NCBI RefSeq assembly: GCF_007751035.1 | Contig: NZ_CP036433.1 | Coordinates: forward strand, 1,779,001-1,843,000 | DNA length: 64,000 nt | From: Lignipirellula cremea | Lineage (GTDB): Bacteria; Planctomycetota; Planctomycetia; Pirellulales; Pirellulaceae | Reading direction: 5' to 3' | Part shown: positions 2,915 to 59,975 of the stretch, one piece after another | Position numbering within the stretch: the first letter of the stretch is position 1 | Layout of the letters: each line of letters begins with the position of its first letter | The notes under the pieces: generated by a model | Seen by the model: only the letters and a program-made list of their open reading frames with translations | What the model was told of the DNA's origin: nothing | Database searches by the model: none | Program-made: the position numbers and the translations under genes

Positions 2915-5900
2915 TTACTTGCCAGTAACCCAGGCGGCCTGGGCCGGCGAGTTGGCGATGTCGTTCAGTTCCAGCCGCAGCGGCGTGGTCCGCACGTTGT
3001 TGTCGATGGTGAGGGTCAGCCGATGCTGGCCCGACGGCAGATCGAGCGTCGTTTCTGAATCCAGCGGCGTCGGCTTGCCGTCGACCCATAACGCCAGTCC
3101 CGCCGTATCCTGGCAGACCAGGCTGATCGGCCCCGCTTCCGTCACTTCCAGGTCGCAACGCACCACGCTGGTCGGCGGCACATTACCCCAGGGAGTAAAC
3201 CGCGGCAGCCCTTCCAGGGGAGTATCGCCCGAAACTTTGGCGTACAGCGGTTGCCAGGACAGGGCCGGGTCGTCGGTGGCGGCCGTGTCGAAACTGGTGC
3301 GGTTGAGCCGCTTGTGTCCGACCGCCGTCCAGATCAGCTTCTCAAAGCGCCGGGCGACACGATCCTGCCCCACGGCGTAATCGCCTTTGCCGAGTTCCGA
3401 CAGGAAGCGAACCAGGTCGGTGAGCTCCGCCCGGGTGAGCAGATCGACGGCGCCTTCGGGCATCAGGGAGCGGCCTTCGCGGCGGGCTTCGATGGCGTCG
3501 AGCGGGGTGGCGATCTCCCGGTCGTTGGCGTCCCGCAGGACCAGCTCTTTGTCGGTCTGTCGCAGGAACACGCCCGACAGCACCTGGCCTTCGTCGGTCA
3601 TGATGGTCAGGGAGTGGAAGTTCTCTTTGATCTTTTTGTTGGGATAGATGAGCGATTCCAGCAGGTAATCGACCGGGGCGCTGCCGCCGATGCTGGCAAG
3701 GTCGGGACCAACGCGGCCGCCGGCTCCGCCAATCGCATGACAGGCCTGGCAGTTGAGGGCGGCGCGGCGATAGATGTCCTCGCCGTGGATCGGGTTGCCC
3801 GCCTGGCGAACGTCGGCGACGATCTGTTCAAACTCGTCCGGTTCCATGGCGTTCCAGCCCCGCTCGGTCAGCGAGCCGGCGTTGCGCAGCGCTTCGATCG
3901 CTGCCGGCGCCTGCTGGGCGGCTCGTTGGGCTTCGCGAATGGCCAGCCGCGCCAGGTCGGGCGGCAGCTGCTGGTCGGTCAAAGCCTTGACCAGCGCGGC
4001 GGCGCCCTGCTTGCGCGACAACAGGGCCGCGATCAAAGTCGACGGGTCCAGGTCGGCCGGAGCCGCCTGCAGTATCTCCACCGCCAGGCTGGCGGCTTGC
4101 GACAGATCGAGCGCAGCCAGCGCCGCAGCCGCTTGTTGCCTGGCGACAAACTGCGGATGCGTCCGGGCGATTTTCGCCAGCACCTCGACGCTGTCCGGTC
4201 CGCCCAGCTGGGCGACGGCCGTGATCGCGGCCGCCCTGGCCGGTGAATCTTCGGCCTCTTCGGCCAGCTTTTCAATCGAGGACCGTAACGGTTCAACTTC
4301 CCAGGCGCCAATGGCGGACACGGTCGCCAGCTGCAGGGCCGGGTCGTTCAGCAGCAGCAGGTCGCCCAGCTTGCTGATGTCCGAGGCTGGTCGCGTTTTC
4401 AGACGGGTGGTGTTTTCGACCAGCGCCTGCAGCAGGGCCGCCTGCTGGGCCGGCGAGGTTTTGGCCCGGGCGACGATCAGCTCCAGCACGCGGCCTAACT
4501 CGGCAGGGCCGCCGAGCGAGGCGATGACTTCCAGCAGTTCATGATGCTTCTCGGGCGGAGCAGTTTCCTCTTCGATCTGTTTGAGCAAAAGCGGAGCCAG
4601 CTCCGATGCTTCGGCCGACTGGGCGGCGAACATCAACTGGCTCACGCTATTAAACTTCAGCTCGCCCGCGATCACCGCCGGCAACCAGTACGGCTGCAGG
4701 TCCCGCATCGCTTGCCACAAGGCGAAATCCAGGAACCGGTCGACCGGCTGGTCGAGCGCCGCCAGGGCATAGACGGCGGCCTGCGCCGACTCCATACGGG
4801 CCAGCGCCCGAACCGCTTCCAGGCGCACTTGCGGATGCGGGTCGAGGGCGCCAGCGGCCATCATCGGCAGCGGCTGTTCAAACGCATCGCGCCAGCGATA
4901 GAGCACGCGCATGGCGGCCGCCCGGACATGATGGTCGGGCGAGCCCAGCAGTTCCCGCAGTAACCCGGGCGAAGGGTGACGCACGCACTGCAGCGTCCAC
5001 AACGCTTCCAGGCGATGGTGTTCATAACGCGGGTCGTCGGATTCCAGCTCCGACAGCCACTTCTCCAGCGGCTCCACCACCGCGCCGGCGCCGCGGGCCC
5101 GCAGCACCATTTTGGCGTTCTGCCGCACCCAGGGCTCGGTCGATTTAAGCTGGTCGAGCAGTTCTTCCATGCCGGCCGTAATCAGGTGCGGCGGCGACAG
5201 CAGCGGCCGGTCTTTTGCCGTGACCCGCCAGATGCGGCCATGCGTATGGTCGCGGCGTTCGTCGCGAAAGTCGACCTCGCCATGCTGGATGATCGGGTTG
5301 TACCAGTCGGCAATGTAGATCGCGCCGTCGGGGCCCATTTTGACATCGATCGGGCGGAAGGCGGTGTGGCTGGACTTGATCAGTTCCGTCTCTTGCCGGG
5401 AGACATACCCGGAGCCGTTTTCAGAAACGACGAACCGGCAAACGCGGTGGGCGCGGAAGTCGTTCGTCAGCATGTTCCCTTGCCAGTCGTCCGGCAGATG
5501 GGCGCCGCCGGCGATCTCCAGGCCGCAATGTTTGGGGCTGCCGGGATTCAAACCCTCCAGCCGCCGCGGGGCGCCCGGCGAAGCCACGAACACGCTGCCA
5601 GGGAAGGCGTAATTGATCCCTTCGCCATAGGCGCCGTCGGTCACAAACGACTGACCCCAGTCGTCGAACTGGTGCCCCCAGGGATTTACAAAGCCGCGGC
5701 AGAGCACATCCAGGTCGAACGTTTCTGGGCGAAATCGCCAGATGCCGCCGCCGTTGAGTCGCTGCACGCCTTGGGGCGTTTCGACATGGCTGTGGATGTA
5801 AATCGACTGGTTCATGTAGAGGGCGCCGTCGGGTCCCCACTGCAGCGTGTGCAGCAGGTGATGGGTGTCTTCGGTGCCAAAACCAGAGAGCACCACGCGG

Positions 5901-6358
5901 CGCCGATCGGCTTTGCCGTCGTGGTCGGTGTCGCGCAGGTGGATGAGCTCGGTGCTGTTGGCGACGTAGGCGCCGCCGTCGCCTGGCGCCACGCCGGTCG
6001 GGATCAGCAGTCCCTCGGCAAAGACGGTCGTCTGGTCGGCGGAGCCGTCGCCGTTCCGGTCTTCGACGATCAGGATTTTGTCGTTCGCCTGCTGGCCTGG
6101 CTTGACCTGGGGATAAACTTCGCTGCTGGCAATCCAGAGCCGGCCCTGGGCGTCGAAGTTCATCTGGATCGGTTTGGCGATCAGCGGATCCGAGGCGTAC
6201 AGGTTCACCTCGAAACCATCGGCCACCACAAAGCTGGCCCGTTCCAGTTCTGGATCCGGGTCAGGGATATCGCGCAGGTCGCGCTGGGCCAGCGCGGAAC
6301 CGGGCAACGCCCAGACCGCAAGGAGACAAACAGCGGCGAAGCAGATAGAGAATTTCAT
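2915..6358 (-). CDS. PVC-type membrane dehydrogenase/HEAT/cytochrome c protein
   Basis: A 1147-residue exported protein with a signal peptide at 1-24 (ends SALAQ). Domain order: a beta-propeller of the planctomycete membrane-bound dehydrogenase type at about 30-400 (FVVADGFEVNLYASDP, then PIQMNFDAQGRLWIASSEVYP); an alpha-solenoid of HEAT-like repeats at about 400-830; a cytochrome c domain with a single CxxCH heme site at 870-874 (CQACHAIGG); and a C-terminal beta-rich domain. The family is greatly expanded in Planctomycetota and Verrucomicrobia and is thought to oxidise sugars or related substrates in the periplasm, passing electrons through the heme; the substrate is unknown. It lies 20 bp after the SGNH hydrolase, so the two are probably co-transcribed. 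Confidence 0.92.
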   Translation of the reverse strand: MKFSICFAAVCLLAVWALPGSALAQRDLRDIPDPDPELERASFVVADGFEVNLYASDPLIAKPIQMNFDAQGRLWIASSEVYPQVKPGQQANDKILIVEDRNGDGSADQTTVFAEGLLIPTGVAPGDGGAYVANSTELIHLRDTDHDGKADRRRVVLSGFGTEDTHHLLHTLQWGPDGALYMNQSIYIHSHVETPQGVQRLNGGGIWRFRPETFDLDVLCRGFVNPWGHQFDDWGQSFVTDGAYGEGINYAFPGSVFVASPGAPRRLEGLNPGSPKHCGLEIAGGAHLPDDWQGNMLTNDFRAHRVCRFVVSENGSGYVSRQETELIKSSHTAFRPIDVKMGPDGAIYIADWYNPIIQHGEVDFRDERRDHTHGRIWRVTAKDRPLLSPPHLITAGMEELLDQLKSTEPWVRQNAKMVLRARGAGAVVEPLEKWLSELESDDPRYEHHRLEALWTLQCVRHPSPGLLRELLGSPDHHVRAAAMRVLYRWRDAFEQPLPMMAAGALDPHPQVRLEAVRALARMESAQAAVYALAALDQPVDRFLDFALWQAMRDLQPYWLPAVIAGELKFNSVSQLMFAAQSAEASELAPLLLKQIEEETAPPEKHHELLEVIASLGGPAELGRVLELIVARAKTSPAQQAALLQALVENTTRLKTRPASDISKLGDLLLLNDPALQLATVSAIGAWEVEPLRSSIEKLAEEAEDSPARAAAITAVAQLGGPDSVEVLAKIARTHPQFVARQQAAAALAALDLSQAASLAVEILQAAPADLDPSTLIAALLSRKQGAAALVKALTDQQLPPDLARLAIREAQRAAQQAPAAIEALRNAGSLTERGWNAMEPDEFEQIVADVRQAGNPIHGEDIYRRAALNCQACHAIGGAGGRVGPDLASIGGSAPVDYLLESLIYPNKKIKENFHSLTIMTDEGQVLSGVFLRQTDKELVLRDANDREIATPLDAIEARREGRSLMPEGAVDLLTRAELTDLVRFLSELGKGDYAVGQDRVARRFEKLIWTAVGHKRLNRTSFDTAATDDPALSWQPLYAKVSGDTPLEGLPRFTPWGNVPPTSVVRCDLEVTEAGPISLVCQDTAGLALWVDGKPTPLDSETTLDLPSGQHRLTLTIDNNVRTTPLRLELNDIANSPAQAAWVTGK

Positions 6359-6378
6359 AATATCGACGCCAGGGGCGC

Positions 6379-7932
6379 TTAGGGCGAGTCTTCGAGGCGA
6401 ATCAATTCAAAGCGATGCGGCACAGGACGCTGCAGGCGGAAGATGCTGTTTTCTTTCTCTTCCACCAGCGGGTCAAATTGCGGAACTTCCGCCGCGTTGT
6501 TCCCTTGTTCGTGCTGGCGGAACAGAAACAGGTACGTTTCGTTCTGGGGCCGATGCCGATGAAAGAACAGGGTGTTCTTTTCATGGATCGCTTTCCGCAG
6601 CAGCCGCAGCTGTTCGTAACTGTAGGTCCGGCGGAAGTCGACGCCGCGGCCCCAGTGTTCATGGGTGGCGGCGATCAGCGGCTTGCCGTCGACCTGCAGA
6701 CCGTAACGTCCCGGAGCCAGGCCGTCGACCCGTAACCGGGCCTGCGGCGCCAGCAGGTCGGCGCCCACTGGCGAGTTGGCTGGCGCCGGCAGCGTCGGCA
6801 ATTGCGCATCGACTGCAGTGAAAGAAAGCGACGTCGGGCCGGCGACAACGTCGCTGGCGACGACTCCGCCGGATCGGGGTGGATCGCTTTCTTCGACATC
6901 AAACGCCATCCACCAGGCCGCTGGCGTAACGCCCAGCGCTTTGGCCAGGATAGGGGCCGTCCGCCAGTAACCATAGGGCGAGAAGTGCACGCCGTTGTCG
7001 GTCAGCTGTTCCAGCGGGGCCGAAGAATTCTGTTTGGCCGGCTCGCCCAGAGGCTGCAGGAAGTCAATGTAGGTCAGATCCCGCGCTTTGGCGGCAGCCT
7101 GCAGGACGCCCGCATACAGGGGGAGCGCCTCGTTGTAGGCGGCCGGATCGGGCAACGGCGGACCCAGGTTTTCGTACCGATACGGCGAGAGCAACACGAT
7201 CCGCGCCGAGTGTTTTTGCAGTTCGTCCAGCAGGCGATCCATGTCGAGCATAAAGGCCGCCACTCCGGCCGCGCCCGCATGGGCAGCGTTCCCACCGTAA
7301 GCGATAATGATCACCGTCGGCTCGCACAACTCAACGTCGTGCAGCAGGCGTTTAAAGCCGTCGTCGGGTTTGCCGAACAACGCCCGGGAGTGGCCGCGGG
7401 CCGTATCGCCGCTCCAGCCCAGGTTGCGAAACAGCACCGGTTGCTCTCGCGGAGCGGTGCTCAGCAGGGTCTCCAGAAAGTCGTGCGTTTGCATCCGCTC
7501 TACAAAGGTCGAACCCAGCCAGACGACCCGGTCGCCGTCATGCAGTTGGAAACCCGATTCGTTCGCTGCAGCGCCGGCCGGATCTTCGTCCGCATCGAGG
7601 ACGGCGTCCTCACGGGCGTCTTCTGCTTCGTCCGCCGGATCGGCGCCGCGCGTTTCTGTTTCCTGGGTTTCCGTCGCCTGGGTTTCCGTCGCCTGGGTTT
7701 CCGTCGCCTGGGTTTCCGTCGCCTGGGTTTCCGTCGCCGGTGGCGCCGCGGCGTCGACTTCTGCGACAGCGCTGGCGGACTCGGCGGGCAAGTCGGGATC
7801 TGCCTGGACAGGCAAGGCGATCGCTGACAGAAGCAGCAACGCGACCAGCAGCAGAGACCCAGGGGATAGCCAGGGCGGAACGCTTCCGGCCCATAGTGGA
7901 TGGCGGCTGCACCTGTTCCTGGAGGTGTTCAT
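6379..7932 (-). CDS. Exported SGNH/GDSL-type hydrolase
   Basis: About 517 residues. A strongly hydrophobic export segment (LLLVALLLLSAIALP) lies near the N-terminus, followed by a low-complexity Ala/Thr/Glu/Gln linker with five tandem ATETQ units. The catalytic domain shows SGNH blocks: block I as WLGSTFVER, a G-x-N-like block III as AYGGNAAHAG and block V as DNGVHFSPYGYW (D-x2-H), fitting an esterase of carbohydrate or acyl substrates. A C-terminal beta-rich region follows. The start is uncertain: ATG at 7932 or at 7947; neither has a strong ribosome binding site. First gene of the pair with the cytochrome protein. Confidence 0.8.
   Translation of the reverse strand: MNTSRNRCSRHPLWAGSVPPWLSPGSLLLVALLLLSAIALPVQADPDLPAESASAVAEVDAAAPPATETQATETQATETQATETQATETQETETRGADPADEAEDAREDAVLDADEDPAGAAANESGFQLHDGDRVVWLGSTFVERMQTHDFLETLLSTAPREQPVLFRNLGWSGDTARGHSRALFGKPDDGFKRLLHDVELCEPTVIIIAYGGNAAHAGAAGVAAFMLDMDRLLDELQKHSARIVLLSPYRYENLGPPLPDPAAYNEALPLYAGVLQAAAKARDLTYIDFLQPLGEPAKQNSSAPLEQLTDNGVHFSPYGYWRTAPILAKALGVTPAAWWMAFDVEESDPPRSGGVVASDVVAGPTSLSFTAVDAQLPTLPAPANSPVGADLLAPQARLRVDGLAPGRYGLQVDGKPLIAATHEHWGRGVDFRRTYSYEQLRLLRKAIHEKNTLFFHRHRPQNETYLFLFRQHEQGNNAAEVPQFDPLVEEKENSIFRLQRPVPHRFELIRLEDSP
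7662..7736. repeat. Five tandem 15-bp repeats coding for ATETQ
   Basis: Five perfect copies of cctgggtttccgtcg follow one another inside the SGNH hydrolase gene. Read on the minus strand they encode ATETQ five times, forming the linker between the signal segment and the catalytic domain. The unit is a multiple of three, so changes in copy number would alter linker length without a frameshift. Confidence 0.95.
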
Positions 7933-8681: not shown

Positions 8682-9140
8682 ATGCTTCCCGCCACCACCG
8701 AACGCGTTGCTGTGAATACGCCCGACTGTATCAACGAGAAAATTCGCCGTCGGACCGATGAGCACATCGCCTATTACGCCCAGGCCAGTCGCGCGGCGAT
8801 TGATGCCCGGCTGTTGGAACTCGACGAGGAATGGGATATCGAACGCACCCTGGAGACGAACGCCGCCGCCGTGTCGCTGGTGGGGCTCACGCTGGGCGCA
8901 ACGGTCAGCCGTAAATGGTTTCTCTTCCCGGGCGTGGTCGCTGCCTTTTTGATGCAGCACGCGGTGCAGGGCTGGTGCCCGCCCGTTCCGCTTTTTCGCC
9001 GGCTGGGCATTCGCACCGCGGCCGAGATCGCTGAAGAGCGGTACGCCCTGAAAGCACTTCGCGGCGATTTCCGCCAGGTGTCCCAGGAAAGCGCCGATGG
9101 GCCCTGCGCCCTGGAAGCGATTGAAGCGGTCCGCATGTAA
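8682..9140 (+). CDS. DUF2892/YgaP-like inner membrane protein
   Basis: A 152-residue protein. After a charged N-terminal helix (residues 1-60) come two membrane segments, AAAVSLVGLTLGATVS and FLFPGVVAAFLMQHAVQ. The C-proximal GWCPPVPLFRRLGIRTAAEI is the signature seen in YgaP-like DUF2892 membrane proteins, several of which are fused to or encoded near rhodanese or DsrE sulfur-handling proteins. A good Shine-Dalgarno (GGAAGGA) precedes the ATG at 8682. A DsrE-family gene follows, so a role linked to sulfane sulfur is a reasonable inference, not a demonstrated one. Confidence 0.72.
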   Translation: MLPATTERVAVNTPDCINEKIRRRTDEHIAYYAQASRAAIDARLLELDEEWDIERTLETNAAAVSLVGLTLGATVSRKWFLFPGVVAAFLMQHAVQGWCPPVPLFRRLGIRTAAEIAEERYALKALRGDFRQVSQESADGPCALEAIEAVRM

Positions 9141-9279
9141 TCCGCCTGCGGCAGCGCCCGGATGGTGACGAACGGCCGGCGCAGTTAGAAAAGAGAAGTT
9201 GTCCGGCTTGCTGGGAAAACGCATTCCCAGCCTTCGAGACCGGCGACGTCCCTTTTTTCCTTCCTGCCTGGAAAGTTCC

Positions 9280-9864
9280 ATGATGAAAGCTGCCTTGTGG
9301 ATGCTGCCCCTCCTCTTAACCTCCTGCTTTGCTCTTAGCCAGTCAGCGGATGCTGCGGAACCTGGCGCGGAACTCCCTTACCAGTATCCGCTGATTAAAG
9401 ATTATGGCGGCGTGCTGCACATTCCCGACGCGGCCCAAACGCCCCGGCCAGGCTCGAAAGTGGTGATCGACATCACCTCGGGCGATCGGACGGGCGACGT
9501 GTTGAAAGGGCTCGGCCGTGCGGCCCTGGTGCTGAATCTGTTCGCCCAGGCAGGCGTGGAGGACTCCTGTAAAGTGGCGATAGTGCTGCATGGTGCGGCC
9601 ACCAGTGCGGCTCTTTCCCATCAGGCGTACGCAGCCCACACGCCGGTCGCGAACGACGTTTCGCGGATTGCGACCAACCCTGACCTGGAGTTGATCCGCC
9701 GGCTACGCCAGGCCGGCGCGGAAGTTTACGTGTGCGGCCAGGCGATGGCCAAACGGGGCTACGCCGTGAAAGACGCGGCGCCGGAAGTGACGGTCGCCGT
9801 TTCCGCCGCTATCGTGAACATCAACCTGCAGAACGCCGGTTACGCCATTCTGACGTTCCACTAA
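9280..9864 (+). CDS. Exported DsrE-family protein
   Basis: A 194-residue protein. The N-terminus (MMKAALWMLPLLLTSCFALS) is a signal sequence; LTSC resembles a lipobox, so a lipoprotein is possible. Residues 60-194 fit the DsrE/DsrF-like fold: KVVIDITSGD, KVAIVLHGAATSAAL and AEVYVCGQAMAKRGY. The Cys in VCGQ is at the place where this superfamily often carries its sulfur-relay cysteine. The ATG at 9280 starts the signal peptide directly. It follows the DUF2892-like gene by 139 bp on the same strand, so the pair may act together on periplasmic sulfur or redox chemistry. Confidence 0.78.
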   Translation: MMKAALWMLPLLLTSCFALSQSADAAEPGAELPYQYPLIKDYGGVLHIPDAAQTPRPGSKVVIDITSGDRTGDVLKGLGRAALVLNLFAQAGVEDSCKVAIVLHGAATSAALSHQAYAAHTPVANDVSRIATNPDLELIRRLRQAGAEVYVCGQAMAKRGYAVKDAAPEVTVAVSAAIVNINLQNAGYAILTFH

Positions 9865-51706: not shown

Positions 51707-52513
51707 ATGCTCGACGCTCAATCGCTGCTGGCGACCCATGATCTGCTGCTGGTGACGCTTGATACGCTGCGCTGGGACGTGGCCGAGGAGGCCTGGCGCC
51801 GGGGGGAAACGCCTGTCCTGGCGCAGTACCTGCCGCAGGGCTGGGAACGGCGCCACTCGCCGGGCAGCTTTACTTATGCGGCCCACCACGCGATCTTTGC
51901 CGGCTTCCTGCCGACGCCGGCGTCGCCCGGGAAGCACCCGCGATTGTTCGCCTGTCGCTTTCCCGGCAGCGAAACGTCGACTGCGCAAACATGCGTTTTC
52001 GAGGCGCCCGATCTGCCGTCGGGCTTGCGCGAGCGGGGCTTTCACACGATCTGCATCGGCGGCGTCGGTTTCTTCAACAAGCTCGGTCCGCTGGGAAGCG
52101 TGCTGCCGGGGTTGTTCGAGGAAAGCCACTGGAGTCCGGCCCTGGGGGTGACGGATCCGGAATCGACCCGATATCAGGTAGACCTGGCGATCGAAAGGAT
52201 CGAGGCCTGCGAGCCGGGACGTCGGTTGTTCCTGTTTCTCAATGTGTCGGCTTTGCATCAGCCGAACTGCCATTATCTGCCTGGCGCCACGGTGGATACA
52301 CGCGACTCGCAGCGGGCGGCGCTCGCGTATGTGGATCAGCATCTGCCGCGTTTGATCGAAGCGATGCGACGCCGGGCTCCGCTGCTAGGCCTGCTGATGA
52401 GCGACCATGGCGTGGCGTACGGGGAAGACGGCTACCACGGCCATCGGCTTGCCCATCAGGTCGTCTGGGATGTACCTTACGGGGAGTTCGTTCTCCCCGC
52501 TGCTTCCTGTTGA
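51707..52513 (+). CDS. STM4013/SEN3800-type alkaline phosphatase-superfamily hydrolase
   Basis: A 268-residue protein of the STM4013 group in the sulfatase/alkaline phosphatase superfamily. The first metal-binding stretch is LLVTLDTLRWDV; a possible nucleophile is Thr in GSFTYAAHH, in the place of the sulfatase Cys/Ser; the second metal site is LMSDHGVAYGEDGYHGHRL. It should hydrolyse a phosphate or sulfate ester, or transfer a phospho group; the substrate is unknown. It is the first of three genes (STM4013-4012-4011) read in the same direction with gaps of 12 bp and an overlap of 10 bp. Confidence 0.85.
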   Translation: MLDAQSLLATHDLLLVTLDTLRWDVAEEAWRRGETPVLAQYLPQGWERRHSPGSFTYAAHHAIFAGFLPTPASPGKHPRLFACRFPGSETSTAQTCVFEAPDLPSGLRERGFHTICIGGVGFFNKLGPLGSVLPGLFEESHWSPALGVTDPESTRYQVDLAIERIEACEPGRRLFLFLNVSALHQPNCHYLPGATVDTRDSQRAALAYVDQHLPRLIEAMRRRAPLLGLLMSDHGVAYGEDGYHGHRLAHQVVWDVPYGEFVLPAASC

Positions 52514-52525
52514 GAGCCGACGACC

Positions 52526-53920
52526 ATGCTTGCGACGCCGCCGCTTTCACTCGACACGCTGCTGGCCGGCAGTCCGTTCCGCTCGTACTGCTATTCTTAC
52601 CCGCACAAAACGGCGTATCGCAAGTTCGCCCCGTTGCCGCTGTCGCAGGTCTGGTCGGAAGAAGATCTTTCCGCACTGTTTCTGTATCTGCACATTCCGT
52701 TCTGTGAATATCGCTGCGGCTTTTGCAATCTGTTCACGCTGTCGCAACCGGAGCAAGGCCTGACGACCCGCTACCTCGACGCGCTGGAACGCCAGGTCGA
52801 AACGACGGTCGCCGCCCTGCCCCAGGCGCGGTTCGCCCAGACGGCGATCGGCGGCGGCACGCCCACCTTTTTGACCACGCCGGAACTGGAGCGGTTGTTC
52901 GGCCTGCTCTGCGGTCCACTGGGAGTTCGCCAGGGGGAAACGCCTTTGGGGATCGAGGCTTCGCCGGCGACGATCAACGACGAGAAGCTGGCCCTGCTGC
53001 AGGAGCAAGGCGTCGAACGGTTCAGCATGGGCATTCAAAGTTTCAGCACGGCCGATGTGCATGCGATGGGCCGACCGCAACGGGCCGAAGAAGCGTTCGC
53101 CGCGCTGGAGCTGGTCGGCCGTTACAACTTTCCGGTCGTAAACCTCGACCTGATCTATGGCGGGGCCGGCCAGACGCACGACGCCTGGCGGGAGTCGGTG
53201 CGGCTGGCGATCGACTACCGTCCGCAAGAACTGTTCCTGTATCCGCTGTATGTGCGGCCGCTGACCGGCCTGGGGAAACGCGGCGTTCCGACCGACAAGG
53301 AGTGGGACGCCTGGCGGATCACGGCCTATCGCCAGGCCCGGGAGCAGCTGCTGCAGGCGGGCTACGAACAGGTCTCCCTGCGGATGTTCCGCCTGCCGGC
53401 GCCGCCTGGTGAAGTGCATCGGGTCAGCCAGACGCACGACAAGACTTATGACGAGACGAACGACTCGCCGACCGTGTACCGGTGCCAGGAGGACGGCATG
53501 CTGGGGCTGGGCAGCGGCAGCCGCTCGTACACGCGGGGGCTGCATTACTCGCGCGAGTACGCCGTGGGCTCGCGAGCGATCCGCAACATCCTGGGCGACT
53601 TCCTGCAGAGCACGGCCGACGACTTCGCCCAGGTCGATTATGGGTTTCCCCTGAACGACGACGAGCAGCGGCGGCGGTATTTGATTCTTTCCCTCCTGCA
53701 GGCCGCAGGGCTGGCGACCGGCGACTACCAGCAGCGTTTTGGCGTTCCGGTCGAAGCGGACTTTCCCGAACTGCATGCGCTGGCCGATCACGGGCTGGCG
53801 GTCTGCACGGCGGACCACTGGCGGCTGACAGCTGCGGGGCTGGAATGGTCCGACGCGATCGGCCCCTGGTTTTATTCGGCGGCGGTGGCCCGGCAGATGG
53901 AGGATTACCCGTGGCGTTAG
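52526..53920 (+). CDS. STM4012-type radical SAM protein
   Basis: A 464-residue radical SAM enzyme with the cluster motif C-x3-C-x2-C at Cys60, Cys64 and Cys67 (FCEYRCGFCNLF). The barrel contains GGGTPTFLTTPELERLF and ERFSMGIQSFS, which make it look like coproporphyrinogen dehydrogenase HemN, and a HemN-like C-terminal region is present. It belongs with STM4012 because of its conserved setting between STM4013 and STM4011. A heme-synthesis role is unlikely on this evidence. The 464-residue length is normal for the group. Reaction unknown. Confidence 0.86.
   Translation: MLATPPLSLDTLLAGSPFRSYCYSYPHKTAYRKFAPLPLSQVWSEEDLSALFLYLHIPFCEYRCGFCNLFTLSQPEQGLTTRYLDALERQVETTVAALPQARFAQTAIGGGTPTFLTTPELERLFGLLCGPLGVRQGETPLGIEASPATINDEKLALLQEQGVERFSMGIQSFSTADVHAMGRPQRAEEAFAALELVGRYNFPVVNLDLIYGGAGQTHDAWRESVRLAIDYRPQELFLYPLYVRPLTGLGKRGVPTDKEWDAWRITAYRQAREQLLQAGYEQVSLRMFRLPAPPGEVHRVSQTHDKTYDETNDSPTVYRCQEDGMLGLGSGSRSYTRGLHYSREYAVGSRAIRNILGDFLQSTADDFAQVDYGFPLNDDEQRRRYLILSLLQAAGLATGDYQQRFGVPVEADFPELHALADHGLAVCTADHWRLTAAGLEWSDAIGPWFYSAAVARQMEDYPWR
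53899..53903 (+). promoter_or_regulatory. Ribosome binding site deciding the GTG start
   Basis: GGAGG lies seven bases before the GTG at 53911, inside the last codons of the STM4012 gene. It supports that GTG as start of STM4011 and shows that the two proteins are translated in a coupled way. Confidence 0.8.
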
Positions 53921-54831
53921 ATTTAACGATTCTGTACCGCGGTCCGCTGTCGAGCTGTAACTACGATTGCGGCTATTGCCCGTTCGCCAAGCATCACGAA
54001 ACGGCGGCCGAGCTGAAGGTCGATCGGCTGGCGCTGGAGCGTTTTGTCGACTGGCTGACGGCGCGGGCGGATGGAACGTTTGGCGTGCTGTTCACGCCCT
54101 GGGGCGAGGCGCTGACGCGTCCCTGGTATCGGTCGGCCATGATGCATCTGAGCCGCCTGCCGCAGATCCGCAAAGTGGCGGTGCAGACCAACCTGTCCTG
54201 TCCACTGGATTGGCTGGCTGGAGCGGATCTTGACTGCCTGGGACTGTGGTGCACCTACCATCCCAGCCAGACGCCGCGGGCCGACTTTTTGGCGCAGTGC
54301 GAGCGTCTGCGGGAGCTGGGCGTAGCGTTCAGCGTTGGCACGGTCGGGATGCGCGAGGACTTCGACGCCATCGCCGCCATGCGGGCTGTTCTGCCGGACG
54401 ACGTTTACTTGTGGGTCAACGCCTTCAAGCAGGAGGCCGACTATTACACGCCGGCGGAGGTGCAGCGGCTGCTGCAGATTGATCCGCTGTTTGCGGTGAA
54501 CAATGTGCGGCATCCGTCCCTGGGCAAGGCCTGCCGCACGGGCGAAAGCGTGATCTCGGTCGACGGCGAGGGAACCGTCCGCCGCTGCCATTTCGTATCC
54601 GAGCCGCTGGGGAATTTGTACGATCCGGATTTTGAACAGCTGCTGCAGCCGCGACCTTGCCCGAACGCGCGGTGCGGCTGTCATATCGGCTACGTCCACC
54701 GCGAGGACTTCCCGCTGTACGAGCTGTTCGGCGCCGGCCTGCTCGAACGCATTCCCTCGCCCGCCTGGCAGGCGTCGGAAACGCTGCTCCGCTGGGTCGG
54801 TTCGTTCGCCGAATCTACAACAGCACGGTGA
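53911..54831 (+). CDS. STM4011-type radical SAM protein
   Basis: A 306-residue radical SAM enzyme that starts at GTG (VALDLTILYRGPLSSCNYDC). The cluster motif is Cys16, Cys20, Cys23 (CNYDCGYCPF). A C-terminal cysteine-rich stretch (KACRTG at about 208-213, VRRCHF, then CPNARCGC) resembles a SPASM or twitch auxiliary cluster domain, as seen in enzymes that modify peptides. The gene overlaps the STM4012 stop by 10 bp and ends 17 bp inside the convergent LRR gene. The usual fourth member (STM4014, ATP-grasp) does not follow. Substrate unknown; peptide modification is a guess. Confidence 0.86.
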   Translation: MALDLTILYRGPLSSCNYDCGYCPFAKHHETAAELKVDRLALERFVDWLTARADGTFGVLFTPWGEALTRPWYRSAMMHLSRLPQIRKVAVQTNLSCPLDWLAGADLDCLGLWCTYHPSQTPRADFLAQCERLRELGVAFSVGTVGMREDFDAIAAMRAVLPDDVYLWVNAFKQEADYYTPAEVQRLLQIDPLFAVNNVRHPSLGKACRTGESVISVDGEGTVRRCHFVSEPLGNLYDPDFEQLLQPRPCPNARCGCHIGYVHREDFPLYELFGAGLLERIPSPAWQASETLLRWVGSFAESTTAR

Positions 54832-55873
54832 TTCCGTCTTCGGCCAGTTCCTGCTGCAGACGGATTACCTGGTCTTGGGCGGGGCGATCGGTGCGGCCGT
54901 ATCCGTAACGGGACTGATTGGTTTTGCCATTGTTGCGCAGGTCGATCTGCTCCAGCCGTGTCCCACGGGCGTCCTGCAGGAAGCTGGCAAACGCATCCCA
55001 GTTTTCAATCTGGTTGCCGCGGAAGGCGAGCGTTCGCAGCTCGCCGAACCAGTCCGCTTTCACGAGCGACCTCAGGGCCTCTGCTCGAATCTTGTTCGAC
55101 GACAGATCGAGCGACTCCAGTCCCCGGAGCGAGCGGCAACGGTTCAGGTGTTCGACGCCGGCGGCCTCAAGCTGGTTCAGCGGCAAGGCCAGATGCCGCA
55201 GGCTGCAGCTGGCCAGCAAAGGGGAAGCTGCCAGCATCCGGGCTCCCTCGGGGCCGATGCGATTGACGCCCAGATCCAGCCGGGTCAGTCGCGGAGCCTC
55301 GATCTCTCCCAGTTCCGTGGCGCCTTCGTCGCCGAGCGCATTGAACGCCAGGTGCAGCGTCCGCAGCTGCTTCCACCAGGGGGCTCCGATCAGGGGGATG
55401 ATCTCTGCGGCCGTCAGCTTGTTTTTGCTGAGGTCCAGTTCGTGCAGCTGGGCGGGAAACTGGCGCCCGGCCAGGTCGTCGATCTCCGTGGACAAGTCGC
55501 GGATTTCGACCTGTGTCAGGGCCGGGTTCACGCGACAGATTTCTTCCATGCCGTCCAGGAACGCGGCGGCGGGAAAGGTCGCTCGTTCAATCAGGCCGCG
55601 GCGGAACGAGCGGGTGGAAACGCCCACGGCGCCCAGTCGCCGCATCGGTTCCAGCAGCAGGTCGCCGTAACGTTCCAGCAGCAGCTGCTCTTCCTTGACG
55701 AGGCCGATCCGCTCGGATTCGCCGGGCAGCAAACGGGCCAGATCGACCTGCACGCGAATCAAATCGGCTTGCGGACTGCCGGCGTCGTCAAGCCAGTCGG
55801 CGTACACCAGGCGAGCGTCGTCGTCGTGGGGATTCTCGCGAATGGCGAGCACAAACGGATGGTCCTGATCCAT
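54815..55873 (-). CDS. TIGR02996-type leucine-rich-repeat protein
   Basis: A 352-residue cytoplasmic protein. Residues 1-45 match the planctomycete TIGR02996 domain (FVLAIRENPHDDDARLVYADWLDDAGSP). Residues about 90-330 are LRR units, such as QLHELDLSKNKLTAAEIIPL, LRTLHLAFNALGDEGATEL and SLRGLESLDLSSNKIRAEAL. TIGR02996 proteins are numerous in planctomycetes and of unknown function. Its 3' end overlaps the 3' end of STM4011 by 17 bp, tail to tail. Start is ATG at 55873. Confidence 0.88.
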   Translation of the reverse strand: MDQDHPFVLAIRENPHDDDARLVYADWLDDAGSPQADLIRVQVDLARLLPGESERIGLVKEEQLLLERYGDLLLEPMRRLGAVGVSTRSFRRGLIERATFPAAAFLDGMEEICRVNPALTQVEIRDLSTEIDDLAGRQFPAQLHELDLSKNKLTAAEIIPLIGAPWWKQLRTLHLAFNALGDEGATELGEIEAPRLTRLDLGVNRIGPEGARMLAASPLLASCSLRHLALPLNQLEAAGVEHLNRCRSLRGLESLDLSSNKIRAEALRSLVKADWFGELRTLAFRGNQIENWDAFASFLQDARGTRLEQIDLRNNGKTNQSRYGYGRTDRPAQDQVIRLQQELAEDGITVLL

Positions 55874-56016: not shown

Positions 56017-57060
56017 TTACAGGGTGGCCAGCTGGGCGTTGTCGATCCGCTCGCCATAGTACTCTTTGTACTTGGTTTTTCGTTCCAGGTCGCGGATGAT
56101 GACTTCGGTAAAGTCGACGCCGGTCAGCGAGGCCGCGCTGCCCAGTCCGCCGGGCGTAAAGACGTTGATCTCCATCAGCTTGTCTTCAACGATATCCAGC
56201 CCCACCAGGTACATGCCGTCGCGGACCAGTTTGGGCCGCACCATTTCCACCAGCCCGAGCATCTGATCGGTGATTTCCACCGCGACGCTTTCCCCGCCCG
56301 AGTGCATGTTGCTGCGCATGTCGCCGCTGTTGTTGACGCGGCGGAACGCAGCGTACTTGCCGTCGCGCATGAGGGGCCGACCATTGAGGACGAACAATCG
56401 CACGTCGCCGTCTTTGGCGGCCGGCAGATACTCCTGGGCGATGCAGTAGCCGTCGCGGATCACGGCGTCGATCATCTGGTTGATATTGGCCGTGTCTTCA
56501 TCGCGAATGAGAAACACGCTCTGGCCGCCCGATCCCTGCAGCGGTTTGATCACCGCGCCGCCTGGATGCTCGGCGACGAAGTGCTTGATCTCGTCCTTGT
56601 TCCGGCTGATGCACGTTCTGGGACGGACCTGTTCCGGGAAGTGCTGGAAGTACGTTTTGTTGAGCGCATTCGCCAGGTTCTTCGGGTCGTTGAGTACGAT
56701 CACGCCGCGGGTGACGGCCAGCTGACCGAACAGCATGCCTGAGGTTTGCGCCCAGGGCCGCTCGATATCTTCTGACGGATCGTTCCGCAGCATCAGCACA
56801 TCGAGGTCGTCGAGTTTGATGCGTTCCTTCCGGGCGCCGTCCCCCTGCAGTTCTTCCAGGTAGGTTTTCAGCGAGTCGTAATGGTCGCCGTTGACGGAGT
56901 GGGCCTGGGCGTGAATGGAGCCATCGATGGCGTAAATGAAATCGCCAACGCCGAGGGTCCAGGCTTCATGCCCCATGTTGGTGGCCGTCATACTGAGGCG
57001 AGTGGTCGTGAAAGCGGCCTGTTCCGAGACGACTTCATTGACGACGAATCCAATTTTCAT
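56017..57060 (-). CDS. ATP-grasp ligase (glutathione synthetase-like)
   Basis: A 347-residue ATP-grasp enzyme. The N-terminal part is a pre-ATP-grasp domain (MKIGFVVNEVVSEQAAF, with the nucleotide-side MLRNDPSEDIERPW); GGAVIKPLQGSGGQSVFLI gives the grasp Lys and glycine loop; AQEYLPAAKDGDVRLFVLNG and VGLDIVEDKLMEINVFTP give the Mg-binding acidic residues and Asn. It is like GshB, but no gamma-glutamylcysteine synthetase is nearby, so ligation of a different amino acid or peptide is plausible. It is third in the operon after the N-formylglutamate amidohydrolase and DUF1704 genes (91-bp gap). Start is ATG at 57060 with GAAAGG upstream. Confidence 0.88.
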   Translation of the reverse strand: MKIGFVVNEVVSEQAAFTTTRLSMTATNMGHEAWTLGVGDFIYAIDGSIHAQAHSVNGDHYDSLKTYLEELQGDGARKERIKLDDLDVLMLRNDPSEDIERPWAQTSGMLFGQLAVTRGVIVLNDPKNLANALNKTYFQHFPEQVRPRTCISRNKDEIKHFVAEHPGGAVIKPLQGSGGQSVFLIRDEDTANINQMIDAVIRDGYCIAQEYLPAAKDGDVRLFVLNGRPLMRDGKYAAFRRVNNSGDMRSNMHSGGESVAVEITDQMLGLVEMVRPKLVRDGMYLVGLDIVEDKLMEINVFTPGGLGSAASLTGVDFTEVIIRDLERKTKYKEYYGERIDNAQLATL

Positions 57061-57151
57061 AGCGGTGCCTTTCAAAGAGACGCTGGGCGGCCGGCGCCTT
57101 TGGATCGTAGCTGACAGGAGGCGACGGCTGACGGCGTCCGTCAGGCGATGG

Positions 57152-59149
57152 CTATCCCAGAGCCTGGTGCAGCAGCTCGGCCGCGGTCGTGCCGTGGCAT
57201 TCTTCGAGCAGGGTCCGCACCCGGGCATCGGTCAGGCAGCGCGGCAATACGGCCGGCGGCTCCAGAATGGCACGACGTCGCAATTCCTGGACCGCAGACA
57301 GATGCGACAGGGCGATTTTTCCCACAAACAGCGGCTCGATCTCCCGCCCCTCGGATAAATGGCCGATCAGCTCCCGCAAACCCCTTAAATAAATGATGTC
57401 CTTGGTCGAGCCGCCGCCCCGGTGGGCCCGCAAGGCGGTCGTAAAAGAGGCCCGCGGAGTCAGGTGGTATTCTTCATGCAGCAGGGCGAATGTCGCCAGA
57501 AATCCGTCCCCCTGGAGCATCGATTGCGCGGCCATCACTCGCGCTGACAGCATGCGAACCCGACCTGGCGTCAGGCCGCCCGTCAGGTACTCGACGAACA
57601 CGGCCAGCCCCTCCTGGAGCGCCTCATATCCGGCCAGCCCGGCGTACATCTGCTGGATCCGCTGGGACCGGCCGTTGACGTACGTCAGAATGTGCACCCC
57701 GATTTCATGGTGCAGCAAAGCCTGCAGTCGTTGCGGCGATAACCGGACGGACCTGGAGATCAGCAGCCGATTGCGGGACACCATGATCCCCGAGGCGATC
57801 TGGTCGTTGACTTCCACCCTGGCCTTGAAGCCCGGGCACAGGCTGCGGTAGTGGGCGATCTCCTGCCGGGCGGCTTCTGCCGTTTCTTCGACGCCGACAC
57901 ACTCGGCCGCAGCGGCGGTCAGGTGTTCCGGCGGGGCGTCGTCGGGCGGCAGGCGATTGCCGCGCTGGCTCCACTCCAGCAGTTGTTCGGCCAGCGACAA
58001 TAACTCGGGCGACGGCCGGCCGTACAGCTGCAGGTTGCTGTATAAAAAGTTGGGCGTTTCAATGTCCCCTAAAGCCGTGATCTGTCGATCGAGCTCGTTC
58101 TGCTTCTCCCAGAAGAGCTGGGCCAGGGTGGCGTCCTCCAGGCGTTCAATCTCAATGGCGAACAGCCGCCTTTTCAGCAGGACCGGATCGTAAGGTAACG
58201 GACGATAGTAAAACCGCGGCGCGTCGCGAAAACCGCTGTCACGGAACGCCTGCCAGGCCTCGTCCGCGTTGACGGGCGTCGCCTGCAGCAGGAAGTCGAA
58301 CGATTCCGATACCTGCCGCAACTGGCGATCGGCCGTTTCGGCCGCCCTGACCAGCGAAGACGGCCCGAAGGAGAGTTTCGTCCGTTTCTGCTCATCGACT
58401 TCGGCGCCGGCAAAGGCGTTGGCCGCCCGCTGAATGGCGCGTCCCAGCCGATGCCGAAAGCTCCGCATGACCCGCGGGTAGAGCTGGTCGGTTGCGTCGC
58501 GGAAGACGGGCTCGACCGCCAGTCCCACGCTGAAACAGCCGGGGTGCGCGGCGCTGCAGTCTTCCATCAGCGGCGGTAAACCGGGCGGAGTCGGTTGCGG
58601 CTCCAGAATGCGGGCCGTACTGGCCGTGGCGTAACCGACCGGAATCGCCGACAGCCGACGGGAGAACTCCTCGACCATCGTCGGCAGGGCGCTGGCGTCG
58701 GCCGAGACAATCTGAAACGTCGGCCGCGGGTTGTCGACCGGAATCAACGGGTCGGCCGGGGGATCCGTCAGCGGCGTCGTCCAGATTTCCAGCGCCAGGA
58801 ACACGCCGAAATGCTCTTGCATCTCTTCGCTGATTTTACGCACCAGGTAAGCGATGCCTGCCTGGTGCTCGGGCTCTCCCGAGGCGAACAGGTAGGCCGC
58901 CTGGGTGGTTACCAGGTCGGCGGTTCCGGCGTCTTCCCGGTCGGTCGGCTGGCGATAGATGCACAAGAACGGCAGTTGGCAATCCATGCGCAACCGTCCG
59001 CCGCCGGGCAGGCTGCGTCGGACCCGTTTGTTGACGGCCAGACGCTCACAGACCTGGCGAGCCAGTTTCACAAACGGGGAAACGTCGGCTTCCGTTTCCG
59101 TCGCATCGGCGGCGGGCGGGGAATTCAATTCTTCGGCGGGATCAGGCAT
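57152..59149 (-). CDS. DUF1704 (QEGLA-motif) metallopeptidase-like protein
   Basis: A 665-residue protein of the flavohemoglobin expression-modulating QEGLA family (DUF1704). The zinc motif H-E-x3-H is HEIGVH at 481-486, and the family motif QEGLA is at 512-516, where its Glu is placed to be a further active-site residue. DUF1704 also occurs in the animal tubulin tyrosine carboxypeptidase MATCAP, so removal of a C-terminal residue from a protein or peptide is a reasonable expectation. The N-terminal 300 residues form a helical region of unknown role. Its ATG overlaps the N-formylglutamate amidohydrolase stop (8-bp overlap), so translation is coupled. Confidence 0.88.
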   Translation of the reverse strand: MPDPAEELNSPPAADATETEADVSPFVKLARQVCERLAVNKRVRRSLPGGGRLRMDCQLPFLCIYRQPTDREDAGTADLVTTQAAYLFASGEPEHQAGIAYLVRKISEEMQEHFGVFLALEIWTTPLTDPPADPLIPVDNPRPTFQIVSADASALPTMVEEFSRRLSAIPVGYATASTARILEPQPTPPGLPPLMEDCSAAHPGCFSVGLAVEPVFRDATDQLYPRVMRSFRHRLGRAIQRAANAFAGAEVDEQKRTKLSFGPSSLVRAAETADRQLRQVSESFDFLLQATPVNADEAWQAFRDSGFRDAPRFYYRPLPYDPVLLKRRLFAIEIERLEDATLAQLFWEKQNELDRQITALGDIETPNFLYSNLQLYGRPSPELLSLAEQLLEWSQRGNRLPPDDAPPEHLTAAAAECVGVEETAEAARQEIAHYRSLCPGFKARVEVNDQIASGIMVSRNRLLISRSVRLSPQRLQALLHHEIGVHILTYVNGRSQRIQQMYAGLAGYEALQEGLAVFVEYLTGGLTPGRVRMLSARVMAAQSMLQGDGFLATFALLHEEYHLTPRASFTTALRAHRGGGSTKDIIYLRGLRELIGHLSEGREIEPLFVGKIALSHLSAVQELRRRAILEPPAVLPRCLTDARVRTLLEECHGTTAAELLHQALG

Positions 59150-59975
59150 GAAGATGTATTTCTTCCAGTAGCCCCTGGCTGGCGCAGCGGAGCGCTTCTC
59201 CGATGGCCTTGACCTGGGCGGGGAGTGGTTCTCCGGTCCATTCGTCCATGTAGATTTTTTTCACCTCGACCGACAGGCAGCAAACGGTGTCCGGGAAGTT
59301 ACGATGGATCCAGCGGCCCATTTCTCCTCCCTGAAACTTGACATTCTCGCCGACATTCAGCGGCCCTTGCGGGAAGGGGAACTGCCGCATTTCCAGCAGG
59401 AAGCGGTCTACCAGATTGTCCCATAACTCGCGGTCCATGCTGCCGGTTCCCAGGTTAATATCGGGATTTTCCCGCGGGTCGGCGGGCTGATCGGCTCCCA
59501 GGCGGCAGTGGTTATACGAATGGAGATCCAGGACGACCGCTTGGCCGTTCTGGTCGACGATCTCGGTCAGCAGGTCGCCCAGGTCGCGGTAGAAAGCGTC
59601 GTACAGGGCGAGCGATTCCTCGATCATTTCGGGCGCAGGAGGCTCCCGCCAGACTTCCAGGTTCCAGGCGTCGGCCGGCGTTTGATAGACGGCCTTCTCG
59701 CGTGGGCGATTGAGGTCGGTTTCAAAGCGCGAGCGATGGACGATCACCTGGTTCGAGGCGGCGGCCGTCCATTCGCCGGTGCACGGATCTTCTTCGCGCA
59801 GTCGCTGCGCTTCGTCGAGCGCAATCCGCTCCAGTAGCTGCGGACGGATCAGACCGCCGTCGTGAATGGCCGTGGCCACCAGCGGGCCAAAGCCACGATC
59901 GATCGTCCATGTCGGCAGCGTTTCGTGGCGTAACTCTTGCGGCTGGCTCAGTGATTTACGGGTGCGAGATGGCAT
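59142..59975 (-). CDS. N-formylglutamate amidohydrolase family protein
   Basis: A 277-residue protein of the HutG-type N-formylglutamate deformylase family (zinc-dependent). The metal motif is VVLDLHSYNHCR; later residues RQFPFPQGPLNVGENVKFQG and CLSVEVKKIYMDEWTGEP are also conserved. In histidine breakdown the family yields glutamate and formate, but no other hut gene is here, so the role is probably to remove an N-acyl or similar group inside this operon. A good ribosome binding site (AGGA) precedes ATG 59975. It is the first gene of the three-gene operon. Confidence 0.87.
   Translation of the reverse strand: MPSRTRKSLSQPQELRHETLPTWTIDRGFGPLVATAIHDGGLIRPQLLERIALDEAQRLREEDPCTGEWTAAASNQVIVHRSRFETDLNRPREKAVYQTPADAWNLEVWREPPAPEMIEESLALYDAFYRDLGDLLTEIVDQNGQAVVLDLHSYNHCRLGADQPADPRENPDINLGTGSMDRELWDNLVDRFLLEMRQFPFPQGPLNVGENVKFQGGEMGRWIHRNFPDTVCCLSVEVKKIYMDEWTGEPLPAQVKAIGEALRCASQGLLEEIHLHA

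Follow-up and report, generated by a model that had tools for sequence, protein, structure and literature searches.

A three-gene module of Lignipirellula cremea, found on the minus strand of the 64,000-nucleotide stretch of DNA that was analysed (here termed the window), encodes an N-formylglutamate-amidohydrolase-like protein (NFGA), a long DUF1704/MATCAP protein, and a GshB-like ATP-grasp ligase. It is tentatively proposed that this ligase/hydrolase module builds and trims an amino-acid tail or oligopeptide, probably composed of glutamate, under hypo-osmotic stress.

Organization of the module and the MATCAP metallopeptidase domain

The open reading frame coordinates place the NFGA gene (277 amino acids [aa]) at positions 59142 to 59975, the MATCAP gene (665 aa) at 57152 to 59149, and the ligase gene (347 aa) at 56017 to 57060. 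As the earlier note had observed, the first two genes overlap by 8 bp (59142 to 59149, minus strand), an arrangement which likely results in translational coupling, while 91 bp separate the MATCAP stop codon from the ligase ATG at 57060.

The MATCAP protein matches PF08014 (4e-90; 302.9 bits against a cut-off of 27) and falls marginally below the cut-off of TIGR02421, the "QEGLA" hypothetical equivalog (335.5 against 338.65). Its metallopeptidase domain (aa 301 to 643; 57221 to 58249, minus strand), which is delimited by the Pfam stretch and by a fold match to human MATCAP (PDB 7z5g), harbors the motifs HEIGVH (aa 481 to 486; 57692 to 57709, minus strand) and QEGLA (aa 512 to 516; 57602 to 57616, minus strand) at the residues reported previously. 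Alignment to human MATCAP assigns two zinc-ligand histidines and the catalytic glutamate to the former motif, while alignment with the EEG motif of TMCP1 identifies E513 of the latter as the predicted third zinc ligand. H481, E482, H486, Q512, E513, G514, and A516 are invariant in 64 aligned sequences, including that of the window. Because phmmer searches of the PDB with the MATCAP protein returned only two weak cytochrome P450 matches, which were rejected, a profile was required to reach 7z5g; the family profile did so with an E value of 1.5e-9, aligning both the HExxxH motif and the downstream glutamate metal ligand. The AF2 model, for which 63 of 90 MATCAP sequences and that of the window served as the input alignment, attained a pLDDT of 90.0 and a pTM of 0.82, and its MATCAP domain superimposes on 7z5g with a VIA Z score of 25.0 over 294 residues (rmsd, 3.0), which counts as a fold match. 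A single-sequence prediction (pLDDT, 34.6) was discarded. The relatedness of DUF1704 to MATCAP, which had been put forward from the sequence, is thus borne out by profile and fold, and the finding that the MATCAP half of the long DUF1704 protein is modelled as human MATCAP is new here.

An inactive-looking NFGA fold and fusions with catalytic residues

The N-terminal extension of the MATCAP protein (aa 48 to 249; 58403 to 59008, minus strand) is, according to the model, a second NFGA fold which has lost its catalytic residues, a reading which is likewise new here. This pseudo-NFGA domain matches 2q7s best (VIA Z score of 13.7 over 178 residues), followed by 2odf (11.2). In an hhalign comparison of the NFGA and MATCAP alignments, covering 166 columns, the DLH of the family reads EIW (W123), and counterparts of IHDG and EEDP were absent by eye; the MAFFT alignment misaligns the start of the domain, and the loss of the first histidine was therefore judged by eye. 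As the hhalign match has an E value of 0.0013 but a probability of only 19%, the assignment rests on the fold match and on bridging fusions found elsewhere.

Ten loci carry a fusion of NFGA and MATCAP, with the ligase adjoining in nine, and the catalytic set is retained in 8 of the 10 fusions, L157 carrying EESP in place of EEDP; the Vibrio fusion (L171) displays changed NFGA residues and has no ligase in its locus. The ligases beside six fusions also pass the NF009110 cut-off, and fusion-form ligases score 170 to 198 bits on the trio-ligase profile, compared to mostly >400 for ligases of the trio form. Neither the inactive-looking domain nor the fusions with catalytic residues had been remarked upon in the earlier note.

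Both N-acetylmuramoyl-L-alanine amidases and poly-gamma-glutamate hydrolases appear among the fold matches to the pseudo-NFGA domain, at Z scores of approximately 10. These matches would fit a role in remodelling the cell envelope or peptidoglycan stem peptides under turgor stress, as would the cell-shape defects of rlo mutants, for which wall defects were proposed (PMC12239564, available part). Such Z values represent the level of a common fold, however, and no obvious signal peptide was apparent by eye in the three window proteins, so that an envelope role is considered improbable.

The stand-alone NFGA belongs to PF05013 (3.2e-21; 76.9 bits against a cut-off of 28.9), and the residues conserved in that family are intact by sequence: IHDGG, EEDP, SRFETDLNR, DLHSYN, and EVKK are all present and are retained in relatives. 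While known N-formylglutamate amidohydrolases are likewise members of PF05013, the window NFGA differs in that no histidine-catabolism genes occur among its neighbors in the window and no NCBIfam model was reached. A phmmer search of the PDB at 0.01 returned no match, and the NFGA profile retrieved only 2odf (E value of 0.2) and the unrelated 7puz (0.62).

The ATP-grasp ligase and the glutathione question

The ligase is assigned to the PRK12458 subfamily (NF009110; 459.1 bits against a cut-off of 408) and matches E. coli GshB with 131 bits (1gsa, 6.5e-37). GSGG, D289, and E297 are invariant, and N299 nearly so, among 12 sequences (11 relatives and that of the window), in agreement with the grasp and Mg-binding motifs noted previously; in this family, such residues bind ATP and Mg. 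The C-terminal tail is conserved, its final residue being Leu in 106 of 109 relatives from 88 loci. A special kinship to tubulin tyrosine ligase (TTL), the ATP-grasp enzyme cited in the earlier note, was not upheld: the protein is GshB/RimK-like, and the TTL family is absent from its five Pfam matches at an E value of ≤0.01. It also scores below the cut-off of the RimK family model TIGR00768 (77.8 against 143.4).

The Pfam matches to GSH-S_ATP and GSH-S_N, the score against E. coli GshB, and the presence of two PF04107 genes in the genome of the window would be expected if the ligase made glutathione or an analogous thiol which the hydrolases then turn over. Against this, the ligase scores below both GshB equivalog cut-offs (TIGR01380, 187.8 against 299.05; NF003573, 201.8 against 272) and has TPGGLGS where GshB has SPTCIRE. 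PF04262 (gamma-glutamylcysteine ligase) was found in none of 149 genomes of the phylum and in 1 of 20 carriers, while PF04107 was found in 4 of 13 carriers, one by a short, weak match. Both families, which were those searched (PF08886 lying outside the search), are absent from 8 of 13 carriers, many of which are draft genomes. The thiol explanation is, therefore, regarded as very improbable, and the previously voiced suspicion that the label "glutathione synthase" misleads appears justified.

Recurrence of the module

Eighty named loci from 13 phyla (as labelled in the database) were fetched using the long DUF1704 protein as the query, among which NFGA is present in 71 and the ligase in 78. 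The complete same-strand order NFGA-MATCAP-ligase is observed in 51 of the 61 loci with room on both sides, the ligase lying downstream in 67 of 69 and NFGA upstream in 60 of 69. The three proteins co-diverge, their distances correlating with r values of 0.73 to 0.85 over 58 loci compared to a permutation maximum of 0.25. Among 149 genomes of the phylum, the ligase exceeds its cut-off in nine, all of which are among the 29 encoding DUF1704. The recurrence of the trio in other bacteria is thereby substantiated, and synteny, co-divergence, and fusion together argue that ligase and carboxypeptidase-type hydrolase act as a unit, as had been supposed. The survey for a conserved fourth gene encoding a target, on the other hand, yielded no widely conserved candidate, the largest non-module cluster reaching just 12 of 80 loci. 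Neither a description of the trio nor an assigned role for bacterial MATCAP relatives was found in the open-access literature searched.

Genomic context and published expression data

Genes for MscS mechanosensitive channels yielded 13 strong matches (17 in total) in 35 locus-flanking stretches against 0.42 expected, an approximately 30-fold excess which spans six lineages once Poribacteria are collapsed, and MgtE yielded two strong matches (four with weak ones) against 0.13; the genome-wide background was counted for these two families. Pfam tallies covered 253 of 319 near and 121 of 153 far flanking ORFs, and 95 of 130 in a Pseudomonadota set (15 of its 16 places newly fetched, the remaining one being L110); the ORFs left out were very long, in some cases short, or omitted by choice. 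Among the families listed (the top 25 of each tally), AA_permease, CorA, MgtE, CNNM, and BrkB recur in near neighbors, as do the non-osmotic sigma-54 activators (4 of 98), with LysR regulators accounting for 10 of 95 in the Pseudomonadota set. The neighbors of the module in the window itself are not osmotic genes. Overall, gene context suggests a link to osmotic or ion stress.

Of the 15 Pseudomonadota loci sampled, four have the rloABC genes immediately after the module; none of the 80 named loci, many of which are truncated, has them alongside. RloB (PF14402) was rejected as a general partner, being present in 2 of 20 carrier genomes and missing from that of the window. An EcfG/RpoE2-type promoter was also considered: GGAAC-N16-CGTT precedes the NFGA domain by 391 bp in Sinorhizobium meliloti and by 377 bp in S. 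medicae. It was dropped because five other loci lack the strict motif in their upstream regions, while a laxer version occurs at chance level across whole loci; module genes are not named in the available part of an RpoE2 regulon study.

In RNA-seq data from the available part of PMC10308900, Photobacterium damselae RS17020 and RS17025, which constitute the fusion form, are upregulated 38-fold and 27-fold, respectively, at 1% NaCl, within a large low-salt regulon in which RimK rises 52-fold. The ligase adjoins the fusion in two other Photobacterium replicons. This low-salt signal, in context and in published RNA-seq, had escaped the earlier note.

Proposed function

It is envisaged that the ATP-grasp ligase, in the manner of GshB and RimK, would activate a C-terminal carboxylate with ATP and add an amino acid, and that the MATCAP zinc carboxypeptidase, judging by its family and fold, would remove C-terminal residues. 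NFGA, of the FGase branch with an M14-like fold, may then cleave an amide beside an acidic residue, perhaps a branch or the last residue left by MATCAP, while the pseudo-NFGA domain would probably serve to bind the substrate or to pair with NFGA. Genome context and the RNA-seq data from a relative would place these activities in the response to low-salt (hypo-osmotic) and ionic stress. Glutamate is the most likely building block by analogy, whether on a protein tail or in a free oligopeptide, because human MATCAP relatives trim poly-glutamate (TMCPs; PMC10499314, available part) in addition to tyrosine, and because RloA, a neighbor in certain Pseudomonadota, and RimK, likewise raised at low salt, are poly-glutamate enzymes, RloA and RimB cleaving this polymer and RimK synthesizing poly-alpha-glutamate (PMC12239564, available part).

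That documented RimK activity also lends itself to a possible, albeit doubtful, alternative, in which the product of the ligase is not a protein tag but a free di- or oligopeptide, serving as an osmolyte or glutamate store which the two hydrolases recycle. The ligase is nearest to GshB, more than one ligase occurs in 16 of 80 loci, as would fit stepwise assembly, and the osmotic context and the lack of a conserved protein target point the same way. GshB acts on a free dipeptide, and the NAGGN dipeptide pathway or RimK poly-glutamate would provide a model for such a store. The MATCAP relatives described in the literature consulted act on protein tails, however, and induction at low salt is opposite to the need for an accumulating osmolyte, though it suits a polymer that renders free glutamate osmotically silent.

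The proposed building and trimming of a tail or oligopeptide resembles the eukaryotic tubulin tail enzymes (TTL/TTLL, CCP, and MATCAP/TMCP), with which the module shares three chemistries, namely, an ATP-grasp ligase, an M14-like exopeptidase or amidohydrolase, and a MATCAP zinc carboxypeptidase, the last matching at a Z score of 25. It differs in being bacterial, without tubulin, and in possessing a GshB/RimK-like rather than TTL-like ligase, an NFGA of the FGase rather than CCP branch, and a pseudo-NFGA domain fused to MATCAP. That the module represents a counterpart of the tubulin tail code across 13 phyla, with an ATP-grasp writer and MATCAP/M14-like erasers polymerizing glutamate or tagging with it for turgor, is thought unlikely; chaining of free glutamate would leave fewer osmotically active particles at low salt, to be released on demand, and the near-fixed C-terminal tail of the ligase could itself be one of the modified tails.

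RimK/RimB, an S6 glutamate ligase and retropepsin-like peptidase acting on C-terminal glutamates (PMC12239564, available part), likewise pair a bacterial ATP-grasp ligase with an opposing peptidase, and RimK shares low-salt induction with the module relatives in P. damselae, but the module ligase is of another subfamily and the peptidases are unrelated. The rlo operon (RloA, a retropepsin; RloB, an inactive transglutaminase-7TM protein; RloC, an ATP-grasp protein) shares an ATP-grasp protein, a peptidase, and hypo-osmotic stress, whereas RloA is secreted, RloB is membrane bound and absent from 18 of 20 carriers, and MATCAP and NFGA are lacking.

In the literature consulted, MATCAP is described as a tubulin enzyme of eukaryotes. 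Its bacterial relatives now gain a setting, with ligase and amidohydrolase partners and low-salt stress, the long-form N-terminal extension has a reading, and S. meliloti offers a tractable host. Should this reading be confirmed, the reversible addition of amino-acid tags, or the cycling of oligopeptides, would represent a widespread bacterial osmotic response, from which, more speculatively, some of the eukaryotic tubulin code may have been derived.

Conservation of the NFGA-MATCAP-ligase module

Within the window (G000:C1:1779001-1843000, from a 9.57-Mb genome assembled as one contig), the three minus-strand genes claimed in the earlier note are indeed present, encoding the N-formylglutamate amidohydrolase-like protein (NFGA; 59142-59975), a DUF1704/MATCAP protein of 665 residues (57152-59149), and an ATP-grasp ligase of 347 residues (56017-57060), each of which scores far above the cutoff of its respective profile (PF05013, PF08014, and NF009110), with the NFGA and MATCAP genes sharing 8 bp. 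The only other DUF1704 gene of this genome (L001; G000:C1:3369509-3370624) is of the short form. Near the trio, genes of the STM4013, STM4012, and STM4011 families (51707-54831, plus strand; 54815-55873, minus strand), encoding one hydrolase and two radical-SAM proteins, represent a separate conserved cluster, among which sits a gene for an LRR protein with a weak STM4015 match.

Among 149 Planctomycetota genomes, DUF1704 was detected in 29, 20 of which lack an above-cutoff ligase; all nine genomes with such a ligase fall within the 29. Eight of these nine possess a long-form MATCAP protein (the copy in genome G132 being cut by the contig start), and the ninth, G036, encodes an NFGA-MATCAP fusion. 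A long-form alignment search returned at least 570 relatives among at least 595 candidate stretches, and the best 80 loci, which were retained, span 13 groups according to their record titles: Planctomycetota, Pseudomonadota, Campylobacterota, Bacteroidota, Chloroflexota, Calditrichota, Ignavibacteria, Poribacteria, Gemmatimonadota, Acidobacteriota, Myxococcota, Nitrospirota, and Verrucomicrobiota. The trio is a unit in both synteny and co-divergence. Its previously noted recurrence was borne out by the same-strand order NFGA, MATCAP, ligase in 51 of the 61 loci with room on both sides (among the 10 exceptions, nine lack NFGA directly upstream and two lack the ligase directly downstream), and the distances among 58 single-module loci correlate between the three proteins (r of 0.73 to 0.85; permutation maximum, 0.25). 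More than one MATCAP gene occurs in 10 of the 80 loci and more than one ligase gene in 16. Planctomycete double modules ordered NFGA-MATCAP-ligase-ligase-MATCAP-ligase were observed in loci L066, L109, L123, and L126, and in L069 a gene matching the MgtE-cluster profile with 798 bits (5767-7158) lies inside the module, between MATCAP and ligase.

The MATCAP domain and its NFGA-like N terminus

The link between DUF1704 and MATCAP drawn in the earlier note is corroborated by an AlphaFold2 model of the window protein, computed from 64 sequences (the protein and 63 relatives; pLDDT 90.0, pTM 0.82), residues 287 to 662 of which superpose on human MATCAP 7z5g over 294 aligned residues with Z 25.0 and an rmsd of 3.0 (Foldseek E 7.8e-9). 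Because the HEIGVH and QEGLA motifs align with HEIGTH and EEGLA of KIAA0895L in an 11-sequence profile and the pLDDT at the putative site is 98, a zinc site is predicted. In TMCP1, mutation of the two glutamates is reported to strongly lower activity (PMC10499314).

Residues 48 to 249 of the same model adopt an NFGA-like fold: N-formylglutamate amidohydrolases match best (2q7s, Z 13.7; 2odf, Z 11.2), ahead of M14 carboxypeptidases, which reach at most 11.0, and poly-gamma-glutamate hydrolases, which score about 10. In ten MATCAP loci (L038, L157, L158, L161, L162, L169, L170, Vibrio L171, and the Photobacterium replicons L172 and L173), the sequence of the corresponding N-terminal domain can be recognized as NFGA, with scores of 56 to 176 bits. 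H-x-G, EEDP, SR-x-EYDLN, D-x-HS, and E-x-KK are kept in eight of the ten fusions (EESP in place of EEDP in L157), and some of these residues are lost from L169 and L171. A ligase gene adjoins the fusion in nine loci, and L171 yielded none. The N-terminal domain has none of these residues in the window protein and in the other aligned trio loci, where NFGA is encoded by a gene of its own; NFGA and MATCAP are therefore coupled in two architectures. In Sinorhizobium meliloti ABS7, MATCAP is split over two overlapping frames (L147:11992-13867), likely a strain or assembly frameshift, and occupies a single frame in S. medicae (L152).

Identity of the ligase

The closest PDB match of the window ligase is E. 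coli GshB (6.5e-37). However, the ligase falls below both GshB equivalog cutoffs as well as the RimK cutoff, and TPGGLGS occupies the position of SPTCIRE in GshB. Classical GshA (PF04262) was detected in none of the 149 phylum genomes and in 1 of 20 genomes carrying the module; of 13 carriers, four have PF04107, the window's genome among them (one of the four matches is short and weak), and 8 harbor neither family. Of 109 complete trio-type ligases from 88 loci, 106 terminate in Leu, most commonly as ATL or CTL, with the C-terminal end of the window ligase encoded at 56017-56043; this tail is missing from six fusion-paired ligases. A near-fixed last residue is unusual, and conservation this exact at the C terminus suggests that it is read by something, perhaps MATCAP.

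Genomic neighborhood

The survey for a conserved fourth gene that was proposed earlier yielded none that is widely shared. Recurrent near the module are genes linked to ions and turgor, namely MscS, AA_permease/SLC12, CorA, MgtE, CNNM, and BrkB. Against a background of 168 MscS genes in 208.6 Mb (35 carrier genomes), 519 kb of non-module sequence contained 17 matches versus 0.42 expected, counts derived from our own profile and a Pfam search of unequal sensitivity; 13 of the 17 exceed 200 bits, in nine loci representing six lineages once four Poribacteria were collapsed (Poisson P 5e-6). MscS occurs in the far set (8 of 121 ORFs) as well as the near sets (at least 7 of 253), and this neighborhood enrichment is thus regional, not operonic; the far-set listing of 25 families does not include CorA, MgtE, or BrkB. 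MgtE gave two strong matches (four with weak ones) versus 0.13 expected. The trio is also found on plasmids of Aminobacter, Roseateles, and Shinella, where a BrkB gene lies beside it (L149) or an Mrp-type antiporter gene lies nearby (L148 and L154).

Other neighbors fit the ion theme poorly, namely LysR regulators (the commonest family in the Pseudomonadota neighbor set, 10 of 95), recurrent sigma-54 activators, the copper and sugar transport genes near the S. meliloti module, and the radical-SAM, LRR, CPBP, and MocA genes flanking the window trio. In S. meliloti, a 70-residue ORF without a Pfam match (L147:10877-11089), preceded by a GGAAC-N16-CGTT motif, lies just upstream of NFGA; pSymB of the laboratory strain S. 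meliloti 2011 matches the trio region. In L169, a RimK gene (8744-9652) adjoins the ligase and NFGA-MATCAP pair, with an MscS-like gene on the opposite side.

A Pseudomonadota sample provided 15 loci from 13 of 398 genomes (three from one genome), in four of which co-directional rloA, rloB, and rloC lie directly downstream of the module; these four may be related to each other, so a chance value for the arrangement is no more than indicative. None of the 80 retained loci contains rloABC, and RloB is encoded by 2 of 20 carrier genomes, the window's genome lacking it.

Expression and proposed function

Two neighboring tags of Photobacterium damselae, A0J47_RS17020 ("GshB") and RS17025 ("QEGLA"), are reported to be upregulated 38.4- and 27.5-fold, respectively, at 1% versus 3% NaCl, as is RimK, 52-fold (PMC10308900). 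As the ligase and fusion genes lie side by side in two other Photobacterium replicons (L172 and L173; longest frames overlapping by 23 bp), this pair is very probably the module described here; the low-salt induction is published for a relative. In Vibrio vulnificus, VV2_1203 (COG3930) appears next to VV2_1204 ("glutathione synthetase") in a clade-specific gene list (PMC3091676).

RimK/RimB is documented as a bacterial ligase-peptidase cycle acting on C-terminal glutamates, and RloA is reported to cleave poly-glutamate in vitro and to be required under hypo-osmotic stress (PMC12239564); TMCP1 and TMCP2 reportedly trim both poly-glutamate and tails (PMC10499314). The present analysis shows synteny, co-divergence, folds, conserved motifs, fusion, and neighborhood enrichment; we infer the reactions of the module, glutamate as the residue, and the nature of the acceptor, be it a protein or a free peptide. 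Taken together, the best reading is that the module would perform a stress-induced cycle in which acidic residues are added and then removed.
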